The notes beneath the pieces are model-generated. The model was not told where the DNA came from and made no database searches. It was given only the letters and a program-made list of their open reading frames with translations. A stretch of 21,929 nucleotides of DNA from a virus: positions 1-21,929 of the IMG/VR virus record IMGVR_UViG_3300031746_000193. One strand, written 5' to 3'. Shown one piece after another: positions 5,688 to 17,039 of the stretch. Positions within the stretch are counted from its first letter, which is position 1. Each line of letters opens with the position of its first letter. The position numbers and the translations under genes are program-made.

Positions 5688-7328
5688 CTACCTCCAGACA
5701 TTAAACTCCGTCTCGCTTTCCCTTATCCCGTACCCGGGTTGAAATACGTTAAACTCCGTCTCAGATTTTAGATTCTCACCATCCCTTCTGGGTTTGCTGT
5801 ATTTCACTCCGGTTAAAGTAACTCGGTAAAGATTCTCCATAAAGTGATCGTTCTCGTCCCGGGGTTTGTTATTGTCATCATAAGTCCAGCGCTGGATCTC
5901 CCAGATATGGCCCTCCTTCTCGATCTTGTCCAAACTTCGAAAGAAGAAAAGGGTCGGGGTTTTGTTGGGTCCCTCCAGCATCTTCTCGACGTTCCTGATC
6001 CCGGAGTCTTTATCCTTACTCGCAACGAAGAGGTCTATTCCATGTCTCCAAAGTCTTTCCTTTAGGACCGTGAAGGTATCGGGAATATCGAGGCCCCTGT
6101 TCTTGATATAGGCCATGTCCCCCTTCGACAAAGGATCAATGAAAACTTCTTTTATCCTCCAGGCATTGCGGGTCTGATGGCGGATGATATCGTCCGCCTC
6201 CTGTTCCGGTGACATATGCCCCCAGGTTTCGTCAATGGCGTAGATCCTGTCAAAAGGATCGACGGCATAGTAGGATATGGCATTGGGACGTGAAGGATGG
6301 TGATCAATCATGGGAACCACAGGCCAGTCGGTAGGGATGTCGAAGGGGTCAATGATGTGGATGTCGGGATTGAACGAAGGCCAAACACGCCCTTCCAGGT
6401 TTAGCCATCCCCCTTGGATTCGGGCTACTATCTCGGATTTACTTAAAGATACCTCAAAAGAATGTATCCCTTCTTCGGTCAAGTATGGATTGGCTCTAAT
6501 CGGAATTTCGGTAACGCTCGCAAATGAAGGATCGCGATTAAGAACAATTTCATCTAAAATCCATGATTCTTTCACTGCTGTCATGGTGAGAATAAAAATG
6601 CCGTTTGAAGCGATGAGTCCTCTTTTATTTGCTACATACTTATCTCTCTCCGGGGGCTCATCCGCCCATATAAAGTCTCCCTTCCAACCCTCATGGTCTC
6701 TCGTATCCTGCTTATTCGTTATCAATTCCAGACTGGATCCGTTCTTAAATTCCCAAAAATACTCTACCCCCACATTGTTCTTAGAGGTCTTATATTGGCC
6801 TTTGGGTATCCACGTTTGCAATTCAGGAACAATGACCGTAGCCGCGTGTTTCTCCCAATCCGAACATAGAATCCTGCCCCTTACCGACTTTCTTCCGAAT
6901 ACTGTTTCTTTCTTGTCCCAAGGCTGGATCCCTAAACAAAAACTCCCGACAATCACACTTCCCAAGACGGTCTTTCCAATTTGATTCGCTCCCTGAAGCG
7001 TTATGGTTTTCTTTCCAGCATGAAGATATTCCAAAATTTTACTTTGGTGAGGAGGTTTTTCATCATCTGTCCACCCACATTTGGGACATTCCCATGCAAA
7101 GTTGTTGCCTTTATAAAACTTTGCCCAATCATAAACCATCTCGATTCCGCATTTCTTACATAAAATACTCCTGATCGGCTTGAAAAAATGAATCCTATTT
7201 TCCTCAATATACTTTGGCACATCCACCCCGGACAACTGCCTGTCGTATTCCGCCCTCTTCTTATAAAGTTCCGCAAGGCGGGGATTCTTGGTATCGGGAA
7301 CAACCTCAGTTTTTCTGGGTTTTCTCAT
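5688..7328 (-). CDS. terL: Terminase large subunit
   Basis: A 546-aa packaging motor that cuts concatemeric DNA and pumps it through the portal using ATP. The N-terminus carries a zinc-ribbon insert (Cys57, Cys60, Cys81, Cys84). Walker A is GANQIGKT (about 113-120) and Walker B is FIWADEP (about 219-225), with the catalytic Glu in the DEPP motif. The nuclease half shows Asp in PMIDHHPS (about 342), Asp in VFIDPLSKGD (about 398) and the acidic DENDHFMENLYR near 494, which fits an RNase H-like fold. ATG at 7328 has GGAG 5 nt upstream; a GTG two codons earlier is the alternative. The C-terminus carries a 16-residue partial duplication (SETEFNV twice), described separately. The gene overlaps the upstream Cys-rich gene by 23 nt. 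Confidence 0.93.
   Translation of the reverse strand: MRKPRKTEVVPDTKNPRLAELYKKRAEYDRQLSGVDVPKYIEENRIHFFKPIRSILCKKCGIEMVYDWAKFYKGNNFAWECPKCGWTDDEKPPHQSKILEYLHAGKKTITLQGANQIGKTVLGSVIVGSFCLGIQPWDKKETVFGRKSVRGRILCSDWEKHAATVIVPELQTWIPKGQYKTSKNNVGVEYFWEFKNGSSLELITNKQDTRDHEGWKGDFIWADEPPERDKYVANKRGLIASNGIFILTMTAVKESWILDEIVLNRDPSFASVTEIPIRANPYLTEEGIHSFEVSLSKSEIVARIQGGWLNLEGRVWPSFNPDIHIIDPFDIPTDWPVVPMIDHHPSRPNAISYYAVDPFDRIYAIDETWGHMSPEQEADDIIRHQTRNAWRIKEVFIDPLSKGDMAYIKNRGLDIPDTFTVLKERLWRHGIDLFVASKDKDSGIRNVEKMLEGPNKTPTLFFFRSLDKIEKEGHIWEIQRWTYDDNNKPRDENDHFMENLYRVTLTGVKYSKPRRDGENLKSETEFNVFQPGYGIRESETEFNVWR
5701..5762. repeat. 14-bp direct repeat at the terminase 3' end
   Basis: TTAAACTCCGTCTC occurs at 5701-5714 and 5749-5762, a period of 48 nt or exactly 16 codons. 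It encodes SETEFNV twice at the terminase C-terminus. The flanking bases (ACATTAAAC versus ACGTTAAAC) are also close. It looks like the remains of a short in-frame tandem duplication that extended the protein. Confidence 0.7.
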
Positions 7329-11151: not shown

Positions 11152-11178
11152 ATTATAGAAGTATTTTCTTTTTGTCAA
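11152..11178 (-). promoter_or_regulatory. Leftward promoter for the HTH regulator
   Basis: On the minus strand TTGACA (11178-11173) and TATAAT (11157-11152) are both perfect matches, with a short 15-nt spacer. The predicted start is near 11145 and the ATG is at 11141, so almost no leader remains. An operator copy lies in the spacer. The short spacer may make it a weak or regulated promoter. Confidence 0.65.
11157..11169. promoter_or_regulatory. Operator copy 1 (AGAA-N5-TTCT)
   Basis: AGAAGTATTTTCT on the plus strand, which reads AGAAAATACTTCT on the minus strand, is an exact copy of 11228-11240 in opposite orientation. It fills the spacer of the leftward promoter. Binding there would block that promoter. 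Its centre is 71 nt from that of the second copy. Confidence 0.6.
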
Positions 11179-11186
11179 GTGTTTTT

Positions 11187-11201
11187 TAGGTGGAGAACCT
11201 A
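11187..11201. promoter_or_regulatory. Inverted repeat TAGGT-GGAGA-ACCTA
   Basis: A perfect 5-5-5 inverted repeat of a sequence different from the AGAA operators, lying between them in the divergent control region. It may bind another regulator or be a third, unrelated site. Confidence 0.4.
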
Positions 11202-11227
11202 TTGTGAAAAGAAAAACAGGTTAAACA

Positions 11228-11240
11228 AGAAAATACTTCT
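11228..11240. promoter_or_regulatory. Operator copy 2 (AGAA-N5-TTCT)
   Basis: AGAAAATACTTCT, extended to a 6-bp-arm inverted repeat CAAGAA-AATAC-TTCTTG at 11226-11242. It abuts and overlaps the -35 of the rightward promoter by one base (three with the extended arms), so a bound repressor would exclude RNA polymerase. Confidence 0.6.
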
Positions 11241-11268
11241 TGACATTTCCGAAAAAGTTATTTAAGAT
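11240..11268 (+). promoter_or_regulatory. Rightward promoter for the early operon
   Basis: TTGACA (11240-11245), a 17-nt spacer and TAAGAT (11263-11268) point rightward. The predicted start near 11275 coincides with the ATG at 11276, suggesting a leaderless first message. It would drive the long plus-strand operon to the terminator at 18379. Confidence 0.6.
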
Positions 11269-11673: not shown

Positions 11674-11940
11674 ATCCCATCTTTCCTGAGACTCCATAGG
11701 TCGGTCATTCCCGTTAATCGGGAAACCCGCAGGCGGTCCGTGACGGAGAGTTAGCGATAGACTCGGGGTAGGTAGTAGTTCTTTGAAAATGGCCGGTGCC
11801 TCACCACAGAGACAGCAGGGCGCGTTATAAAGGGGAGCAATGTCTGTGACCATCCTCTACCGGTCAGTAACTCCTGAGCCAATTGGCACAAGGGAAGGCC
11901 AAGCCCATAAGGGATGAGGGGGTTAGAAAGGGGTAATCTC
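11674..11940 (+). ncRNA. Candidate structured RNA element A (no gene)
   Basis: A 267-nt stretch inside the operon that is more GC-rich than its neighbours and contains no convincing gene. Visible stems on the plus strand are GGAAA/TTTCC (11666-11670 with 11682-11686), TTCCCG/CGGGAA with a 5-nt loop (11708-11724), TCCG/CGGA (11737-11747), GAGT/ACTC (11748-11764), and a nested domain closed by CCGGT/ACCGG (11793-11797 with 11859-11863) in which CACAG and ACA pair with TGTCTGTG (11841-11848) across a two-base bulge. CCC-ATAA-GGG (11904-11913) follows. It ends at the ribosome site of the next gene. A 25-codon frame (11840-11917) with AGGGGAG before it could be a leader peptide. The boundaries are approximate and no known RNA class is recognised. 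Confidence 0.4.
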
Positions 11941-15421: not shown

Positions 15422-15847
15422 ATGTCTTATAATGGAGCAAAAGATGGTAAGCATTACTGGTTAACTCCCAAAGAAGTTTATAAGAAGTTAGATGATGAAT
15501 TTCATTTTGATTTTGATCCTTGCCCTTATCCAAAACCAGACTATTTTGATGGATTGATAATTGATTGGGGGAATTCCAATTATGTTAACCCTCCGTTCAA
15601 TGGTCCTACCAAATGGGTAAATAAAGCAATTCTTGAATATCAAAAAGGTAAAAGAGTTATTTTCGTTTTTCCAATTGATAAATGGATACATCGGATGATA
15701 GAAGTTGGCGCAGAAATACGGAATTTGGGTGACATTAGATGGCTTAGTACCGAAAGGAATATGTTTGGGAATCATTATCCAGGAGTTGGAACGGGCCGAT
15801 GGATAGCCTGTTTTGTTTTGGATCCATTAAAAAAGGAGACCCCATGA
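15422..15847 (+). CDS. DNA N6-adenine methyltransferase (phage Dam type)
   Basis: A 141-aa protein matching the phage N6-adenine methyltransferase family. The N-terminus has HYWLTPKEVYKKLDDEFHFD, followed by DPCPYP and then NYVNPPFNGPTKWVNKAI with the catalytic NPPF (56-59). RVIFVFPIDKWIH and the C-terminal GRWIACFVLD strand complete the fold. The usual protein of this family is 150-180 aa, so it is compact but complete. GGAG lies 10 nt before the ATG; a GTG-type start at 15395 would overlap the nuclease gene. It overlaps the next gene by ATGA. It is the second methyltransferase in the operon. Confidence 0.85.
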   Translation: MSYNGAKDGKHYWLTPKEVYKKLDDEFHFDFDPCPYPKPDYFDGLIIDWGNSNYVNPPFNGPTKWVNKAILEYQKGKRVIFVFPIDKWIHRMIEVGAEIRNLGDIRWLSTERNMFGNHYPGVGTGRWIACFVLDPLKKETP

Positions 15848-16614
15848 ACGAACTCAATCAAGTGGAAATTGTGAAAAAAGAAGTGATGAATCCTGAAGAG
15901 GAAGTAAAAGCCAAGGCACTACCTATCGCAACCGAAGCCATGGGCATTATTGTCAGAGATCAGACTACTCTGATTAAGGCTAACCAAGCCTTCCTTCTGA
16001 TTGATGCTGCTCGTAAAGAGATCAAAGATTATTTCGGTCCGATTGTAGAGAAATGGAAGGAAACTAAAAAAAGTGCAGATGAAGGCCGAGCTCTAAGTCT
16101 TAGGAAATGGGAGAAGGCCGAGGAACCTCTTGTCCGTGCTCGTGCATATCTCGATATTCAGATTGTAGACTACAAGCGAGAGCAAGATAAAAAGCGTGAA
16201 GAAGAACAAGAAAGACTACGGCAAGAAGCAATCATTGCGGAGATGGAGAGACGCAAAAAAGAGGTCGAAGAAAGAATCGATCAAGCTACCGAACTGGAAA
16301 AGGCAGGAGCTCATGACGAAGCAATGGCAATTTTAGATGAGACGATTGAGGAGAAGCCGATTGAAATCTACATCCCCCCACCGGAAACCCAGAAAGTGGA
16401 ATTGGATGGGATGGCAATGGTCACAACCTGGCATGCTGAGGTGGTAAATCCGAAGGAACTTTTTCTCGCCATAGGACAGGGAAGATGTCCATTGGCTTAT
16501 GGAGATCCAAATATGCCAGCCTTAAATTCTCAAGCTACGCATCTAAAAAAAGAAATGAGAATTCCGGGAGTAAAATCAGTATCAGAAACAAAGAGTAGGC
16601 CAACGGGAAGATAA
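15844..16614 (+). CDS. Coiled-coil phage protein of unknown function (256 aa)
   Basis: A 256-aa protein. An N-terminal helical domain carries IVRDQTTLIKANQAFLLIDA and ARKEIKDYFGPIVEKWKETK. A long Lys/Glu-rich coiled coil follows (about 95-165). The C-terminal part has IYIPPPET, then a beta unit (VTTWHAEVVNPKELFLAIGQ) and an HLKKEMRIPGVKS end. This architecture, with the IPGV ending, is familiar from phage proteins next to recombination genes that are annotated as hypothetical. AAGGAGACCCC precedes the ATG. Its TAA is inside the first stem of structured element B, which could link translation ending to folding of that element. Confidence 0.7.
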   Translation: MNELNQVEIVKKEVMNPEEEVKAKALPIATEAMGIIVRDQTTLIKANQAFLLIDAARKEIKDYFGPIVEKWKETKKSADEGRALSLRKWEKAEEPLVRARAYLDIQIVDYKREQDKKREEEQERLRQEAIIAEMERRKKEVEERIDQATELEKAGAHDEAMAILDETIEEKPIEIYIPPPETQKVELDGMAMVTTWHAEVVNPKELFLAIGQGRCPLAYGDPNMPALNSQATHLKKEMRIPGVKSVSETKSRPTGR

Positions 16615-16914
16615 GGTGGGCAACTATGCGGATTAAGTCCGATCTAAGCCATGCAAATAAGGACCAGCTAGGGATGGTGGACGATGATTGTGCTACTTTG
16701 AGTCTGAAAACAGGAGAAGGTGCACACCTTTAGCAGCTCCTGCCCACCCCACACAAGATTCATGGCTGCTGGTTGTTGCCCACTTTAATTTAGAGAATGA
16801 GGCGGGTCGGTGGCTGCTCGCTATGCGAGAGAGCCAATTACTCACACCAAGAAAGCAGGATAAAATGAAAGTCTCGATGGTGGTATGCAGCAGGTAATCC
16901 TGCCCGACCTGCCT
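16612..16914 (+). ncRNA. Candidate structured RNA element B, two closed domains
   Basis: This gene-free stretch folds by eye into two domains. Domain 1 (16612-16787) is closed by a 13-bp helix: TAA plus G-GTGGGCAAC (16612-16624) with GTTGCCCAC-TTTA (16775-16787), including one G-U pair. Inside are CGGA/TCCG (16629-16641), ACCA/TGGT, and CAGGAG/CTCCTG (16711-16742) holding AAGGT-GCAC-ACCTT. Domain 2 (16800-16914) is closed by an 11-bp helix with one G-U pair (AGGCGGGTCGG with CCGACCTGCCT). It holds CTCGC-TAT-GCGAG (16817-16829) extended by GGCT/AGCC, and GCAGG-TAAT-CCTGC (16890-16903). AGCAGC (16732-16737) and GCTGCT (16765-16770) can also pair. A ribosome site for the 37-aa gene follows at once. 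The class is unknown; these are hand pairings. Confidence 0.6.
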
Positions 16915-16925
16915 GAAGGATTTAG

Positions 16926-17039
16926 ATGAAAACTTTTCAAGATTATCTCAAGGAAGAATATAGTTGGTGGGGAAGATTGAAATTGAAAGTCAGAGTTAAA
17001 TTAACTCTATTGTGGTGGTGGATTATTAGAAAGAAGTGA
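16926..17039 (+). CDS. Small basic, Trp-rich protein (37 aa)
   Basis: A 37-aa frame, MKTFQDYLKEEYSWWGRLKL, then KVRVKLTLLWWWIIRKK. AAGGA lies 5 nt before the ATG and immediately follows the closing stem of structured element B. It is amphipathic with a Trp/Leu hydrophobic end, so it may associate with the membrane. No known family. Confidence 0.5.
   Translation: MKTFQDYLKEEYSWWGRLKLKVRVKLTLLWWWIIRKK

Follow-up and report, generated by a model that had tools for sequence, protein, structure and literature searches.

Putative mobile structured RNA elements, one nested within another, in an early-operon spacer of a podovirus-like virus

MITEs, ERIC and REP sequences of bacteria are non-coding, imperfectly palindromic intergenic repeats, which are transcribed and are conserved by sequence. 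The RNase III sites between the early genes of phage T7 are single irregular hairpins with no signs of movement. In T4-type phages, PeSLs are reportedly mobile intergenic stem-loop cassettes which take part in the modular shuffling of plastic small-gene regions, and they are said to be promoter-terminator composites, made of an early promoter and a terminator-like stem-loop. ESAS of cluster K mycobacteriophages are inverted repeats that lie shortly upstream of the start codons of some of the non-structural genes (Pope et al., 2011, PMC3203893; PMC12699233). They occur several per genome, mostly in one orientation, with repeat letters that differ between subclusters; the repeats are imperfect and 17 bp long, have spacers of mostly 4–13 bp and are tied to the 13-bp SAS (PMC3203893; PMC12699233).

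The elements described here come from one spacer of the window, i.e., the whole stretch of DNA analysed, a virus record of 21,929 bases, and from other virus contigs (L numbers below). They are best read as nearest in biology to ESAS and PeSLs while being members of neither; they sit in a similar place and may work alike. Like ESAS, they are found just upstream of the starts of non-structural genes, in several copies and in one orientation, and their repeat letters vary between phage groups. However, their stems enclose 47–107 nt with further helices, unlike the short ESAS spacers, and one element is inserted into another. SAS itself (GGGATAGGAGCCC, up to two mismatches) gave a single chance-level match in the window, at 6422–6434, far from the element. 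With PeSLs they share the character of mobile intergenic structured cassettes among small genes, but no promoter-like site (sigma-70 consensus only) or terminator-like site was found within 16612–16914. MITEs, ERIC and REP are likewise non-coding, imperfectly palindromic repeats between genes, whereas in the present elements conservation concerns the pairing and a few letters at the junctions, and the orientation is strictly sense. The T7 sites are also structured sites between early phage cistrons, but they are single irregular hairpins and not multi-helix mobile elements, and RNase III cleavage at the present elements would be hypothetical.

The window encodes a podovirus-like portal (PHROG head-tail adaptor, E 1e-114), and its early operon runs rightward. 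The spacer is flanked by a gene of 258 aa (15838–16614; PHROG 10477-like, coiled coil), with its stop TAA at 16612–16614, and by a small gene of 37 aa (16926–17039); these genes and all window features listed below are on the + strand. An initial annotation had described the spacer as a candidate two-domain structured RNA of about 300 nt, and most of its individual observations were reproduced. Helices of 13 bp (16612–16624/16775–16787) and 11 bp (16800–16810/16904–16914), each with one G-U, were found exactly where it had placed them, the first including the upstream stop. With no more than one G-U allowed, these two rank first in length among the helices of 16612–16914, and each has a pairing probability near 1. 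Among 300 mononucleotide shuffles, the longest helix under this limit was 11 bp or more in 13 and 13 bp in one. The ribosome site lies right after the second helix as described (Shine-Dalgarno region at 16915–16925, ATG at 16926, 11 nt past the helix end), and the placement of the feature between upstream stop and downstream ribosome site holds. The RNA fold of 16600–16930 had an energy of −111.8 kcal/mol (z = −2.87), and none of 100 dinucleotide shuffles was as low. The annotation had recognised no known class; correspondingly, Rfam 15 gave no matches on the window at gathering thresholds, and below them (E ≤ 10) just weak unrelated matches, nothing convincing. Compensatory changes in relatives, which the annotation had suggested looking for, were present in the closing stems of both domains. 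What stands is thus a real RNA feature conserved by structure, but not a single RNA of about 300 nt with two domains. The two domains are independent modules, which other phages carry apart from each other, in different orders and between different genes, and the first is itself interrupted by an insert of the same family as the second. On sequence evidence, the spacer 16612–16914 is composed of three modules, a class A element (16612–16787), a class B element nested in it (16671–16750), and a second class B element (16800–16914).

The class A element has homologues at L112:8527–8617 and L020:12262–12346, in which all three helices are kept. The common plan comprises a closing stem P1, a 4-bp hairpin P2, a linker AUCUA or AUCA, and a stem P3 of the form AGC.../...GCU. 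In the window P1 is the 13-bp helix (strands 16612–16624 and 16775–16787), P2 is the hairpin CGGA-loop-TCCG at 16629–16641 (TCGG/CCGA in L112, CGAG/CTCG in L020), and P3 pairs AGCCATG at 16647–16653 with CATGGCT at 16761–16767 (AGCGAG/CTCGCT in L112, AGCCCT/AGGGCT in L020). P1 reads GGTGGGCAAC in the window, TGTGGGCAAC in L112 and GGGGCAGC in L020, and compensatory variation was seen in every class A helix across the three. Unconstrained folding of the window gives P3 a probability of about 0.4 with rival pairings competing, so that this helix rests on the comparison with relatives. The L020 copy follows the same gene as the window copy, and the L112 copy follows another gene. The coiled-coil gene, which the annotation had proposed as an anchor for comparison, is not reliable in that role: L021, L023 and L078 carry it with no such element in that spacer, and the cases of L021 and L078 indicate that a polycistronic mRNA needs no such element. 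When the termini were inspected for the attC core sites RYYYAAC/GTTRRRY, the class A termini GGGCAAC/GTTGCCC broke both consensus strings, and the class B termini, as read from sequence, contained none.

The P3 loop of class A measures about 30 nt in L112, 26 in L020 and 107 in the window, where it holds the nested class B element of 80 nt (16671–16750; P1 GGGATGG/CCACCCC). The window copy was compared to the uninterrupted L112 copy by scanning all single deletions of 60–99 nt at every start, and the best of them was exactly 16671–16750, from P1 to P1'. With this deletion the alignment z was 8.6, and without deletion 5.9. The insert was flagged independently by a covariance model, R1 (E 0.58 in 1 Mb), and 15 nt at its 3' end are identical to part of a class B element in L108, a related phage. 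From the deletion scan, the model match and this identity we conclude that a class B element was inserted into one of class A. The nested copy has one A-C mismatch in P1, and its fold is no better than alternatives. A target duplication is not clearly seen for this single nested insertion, as its flanks read GCTA/.../ACAC compared with GCTA/AAAACC in L112. The annotation had also proposed a contact AGCAGC/GCTGCT; the letters exist (16730–16738/16764–16772, 9 bp with three G-U), but the contact is probably incidental, since it would link the insert with the class A element around it and is not supported by any relative.

The second class B element, formerly the second domain, was matched by the covariance model with E 1e-7, itself being in the training set. 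Its P1 5' strand (16800–16810) is followed by UGG, the P2 hairpin GGCT...AGCC occupies 16812–16835, and the P3 hairpin GCAGG-TAAT-CCTGC (16890–16903) is joined directly to the P1 3' strand (16904–16914). Positions 16796–16920 of the window are 93% identical to L112:8884–9010, with the match stopping within a few bases of the element and with different genes on both sides. This change of neighbours identifies the element as a separate unit, although the 93% identity could also be explained by constraint. In P1 the two copies differ by an extra A on one strand that is matched by an extra U on the opposite strand, so that pairing is retained. A protein-coding reading of the spacer was rejected on the same comparison (125 against 127 nt), in which indels are unpaired with respect to frame and P1 is kept instead.

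A nearby RecT-like protein served to fetch 46 loci of virus contigs for comparison, and further contigs came from an alignment of the upstream protein, from the portal and from element-derived patterns. Spacers of the nearest relatives had strong closing stems at several intergenic places. Searching the spacer by blastn against phage and plasmid collections gave no matches, the exact 16-mer GTGGGCAACTATGCGG had 18 matches in viral contigs, all of them unrelated, and weak blast matches at L020:15573 and L021:11703 shared ribosome-site letters only. The element-derived pattern gave 10 matches in seven of ten records, while its reversed control gave none. Three matches from a pattern scan of a bacterial and archaeal genome collection, and a covariance-model match at L059:14648, fell in coding sequence and were considered chance. 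In total 17 class B copies were found, two in the window and 15 in ten other virus contigs, and every copy was intercistronic. L022 has three, L032, L020 and L108 (the same contig as L111) have two each, and L023, L067, L069, L072, L074 and L112 one each; the count is a lower bound (at least 17), as model R1 misses copies with other P1 letters, such as those of L108/L111. Rfam families had no match to the class B copies of six loci. The T-arm-like P3 (GCAGG...CCTGC) and 5' letters like those of tRNA-Leu led to consideration of a tRNA-derived origin, which received no support from Rfam or ARAGORN: the Rfam tRNA model had no match to the class B copies and ARAGORN reported none on the window. 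A sub-threshold tRNA match (RF00005, 23.1 bits) was observed at L067:1707–1765, in a virus contig of 101.8 kb that also has a class B element.

All class B copies follow one plan, P1 of 6–16 bp, usually ending GG, then UGG, the P2 hairpin, variable hairpins, P3, and P1'. P3 ends with CCUGC or a close variant and meets the P1 3' strand directly or across a single base, and P1 encloses 47–93 nt, the interiors varying greatly in length and letters. P1 reads GGCCAATGG or nearly so in seven phages, TGGCTGCGG in L020, GGGTCGG in the window and L112, and GGGGTGG and GTGCGG in L108, so the pairing is kept while the letters change between phages. In an alignment of 12 copies (A4), 98.8% of P1 cells were paired against 84.8% in shuffles and five of the seven pairs had changed on both sides, with fewer independent changes than copies, the seven GGCCAATGG phages contributing few. 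None of 500 shuffles reached any of the measures, and sliding the partner strand destroyed the signal. Within A4 it is the window, L020 and wobble variants that carry the support; L108 and L112 are further cases outside it. P3 and P2 also beat shuffles of the interior (2 of 500 and 1 of 500, respectively). Departures from Watson-Crick pairing in P1 were nine G-U against one A-C (p = 0.02), as expected if the RNA is on the gene strand.

Placement of the elements was equally regular. An upstream stop was found at most 20 nt from P1 in 16 of 18 elements, some of the upstream frames being short and unproven, and a start codon lay 10–21 nt past P1' in 14 of the 15 elements with a called start, the caller having required a Shine-Dalgarno sequence. 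The gap leaves just room for such a sequence. Each of the 17 class B copies has the same orientation as its flanking genes, and the genes downstream of elements are small and unrelated. The order of stop, element and start, the sense orientation and these downstream genes led us to put an RNA-level role in cis first. Predicted accessibility of the ribosome site was unchanged when the elements were deleted in silico; a masking switch is therefore not favoured, and no direct effect on initiation is predicted.

We incline, by a little more than an even chance, to the reading that these are mobile intercistronic structured RNA elements of the early operon, which punctuate the polycistronic early mRNA in cis. 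The sequences show the element family with its fold, its sense orientation, its position between stop and ribosome site, and its movement as a unit; we infer that the elements are transcribed, that they act in cis as punctuation or insulation, and that they are mobilised in some way. In the window, class A starts at the upstream stop with class B inserted into its P3 loop, and the second class B follows class A and ends immediately ahead of the next gene's ribosome site. Through its closing stem P1, the spacer would be gathered into one compact unit of several helices, which keeps adjacent cistrons apart and leaves the Shine-Dalgarno sequence outside the fold. Such a unit might protect mRNA ends or define them, perhaps by serving as a site for processing or protection of the RNase III type. 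A wider proposal, which we advance tentatively, is that phages trade several mobile RNA modules that are unrelated to one another (classes A and B with at least one other), conserved in fold and not in sequence, to punctuate early operons, the spacers and not the genes being mobile and able to nest.

Some of the same features would suit selfish, MITE-like DNA. A non-autonomous transposon that is tolerated in spacers would then have P1 as its terminal inverted repeat, with RNA folding as a by-product. There are inverted repeats at the element ends, the P1 letters are similar within a phage and unlike between phage groups, and the insertion of one element into another is clean. This reading is nevertheless unlikely, as random orientation would place 17 of 17 class B copies in gene sense with a probability of about 1e-5 (the copies are not all independent), P1 departures are biased to G-U over A-C, and the inner features UGG, CCUGC, P2 and P3 are kept while the termini change; no clear target-site duplication was seen at the nested insertion and no transposase was identified. 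Trans-acting processed small RNAs or decoys, e.g., against a host nuclease or defence, would fit the compact closed-end folds present in several copies per phage in the early operon, but the interiors are not conserved and thus offer no common target sequence, the tight spacing to the next start suggests a role in cis, and there is no resemblance to tRNA or other Rfam families, which makes this account rather improbable.

A riboswitch or attenuator of the downstream gene would explain a multi-helix junction immediately upstream of a ribosome site. We give it very little credence, since several copies occur per operon before unrelated genes, a conserved binding core is absent beyond UGG/CCUGC, no terminator is found in or after the element, and the ribosome site is not sequestered. 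Neutral spacer folding by chance, for which it speaks that about 4% of shuffles contain a helix of at least 11 bp with no more than one G-U, is hardly credible in view of the homologues, the covariation and the enrichment of the pattern over its control.

Spacers separating small early genes of phages are usually ignored, and here they hold pairing-conserved folded RNA modules, absent from Rfam, which appear mobile as exact units and are always in gene sense. The elements tie RNA structure to phage mosaicism, i.e., the shuffling of small early genes, and offer a concrete system in which ideas about ESAS, the unexplained inverted repeats that other phages carry close to start codons, could be tested. 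If, as the favoured punctuation in cis would have it, they set mRNA ends or the independence of cistrons, this would help to account for the immediate expression of small genes newly taken up into a foreign operon.

Several further observations were made in the same contigs. Tandem pairs of elements occur elsewhere, in the orders A then C and C then B (L112, L108). A third element type, class C, was seen at L112:8621–8743 and on the reverse strand of L108 at 6287–6397, with P1 TCTGCCCCTG/CAGGGGCAGA; its ends are conserved between the two phages and its interior differs. Class B comes directly after it in L108, and class A precedes it in L112. A short spacer motif, AACTGxGTGAGCATCCTGCG with a small stem, is located just before a ribosome site at L112:9113–9147 and L020:15363–15395, and is possibly another small element. 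An intergenic block of the window at 11766–11870 has 93% identity with L108 between unlike flanks and folds no better than shuffles; in L108 the adjoining segment 11868–11931 comes after a class B element instead. Finally, at the start of the rightward early operon, window positions 11157–11268 contain a 14-bp perfect inverted repeat (AGAAGTATTTTCTT) beside a promoter-like site TTGACA-17-TAAGAT, and this repeat is a candidate operator.
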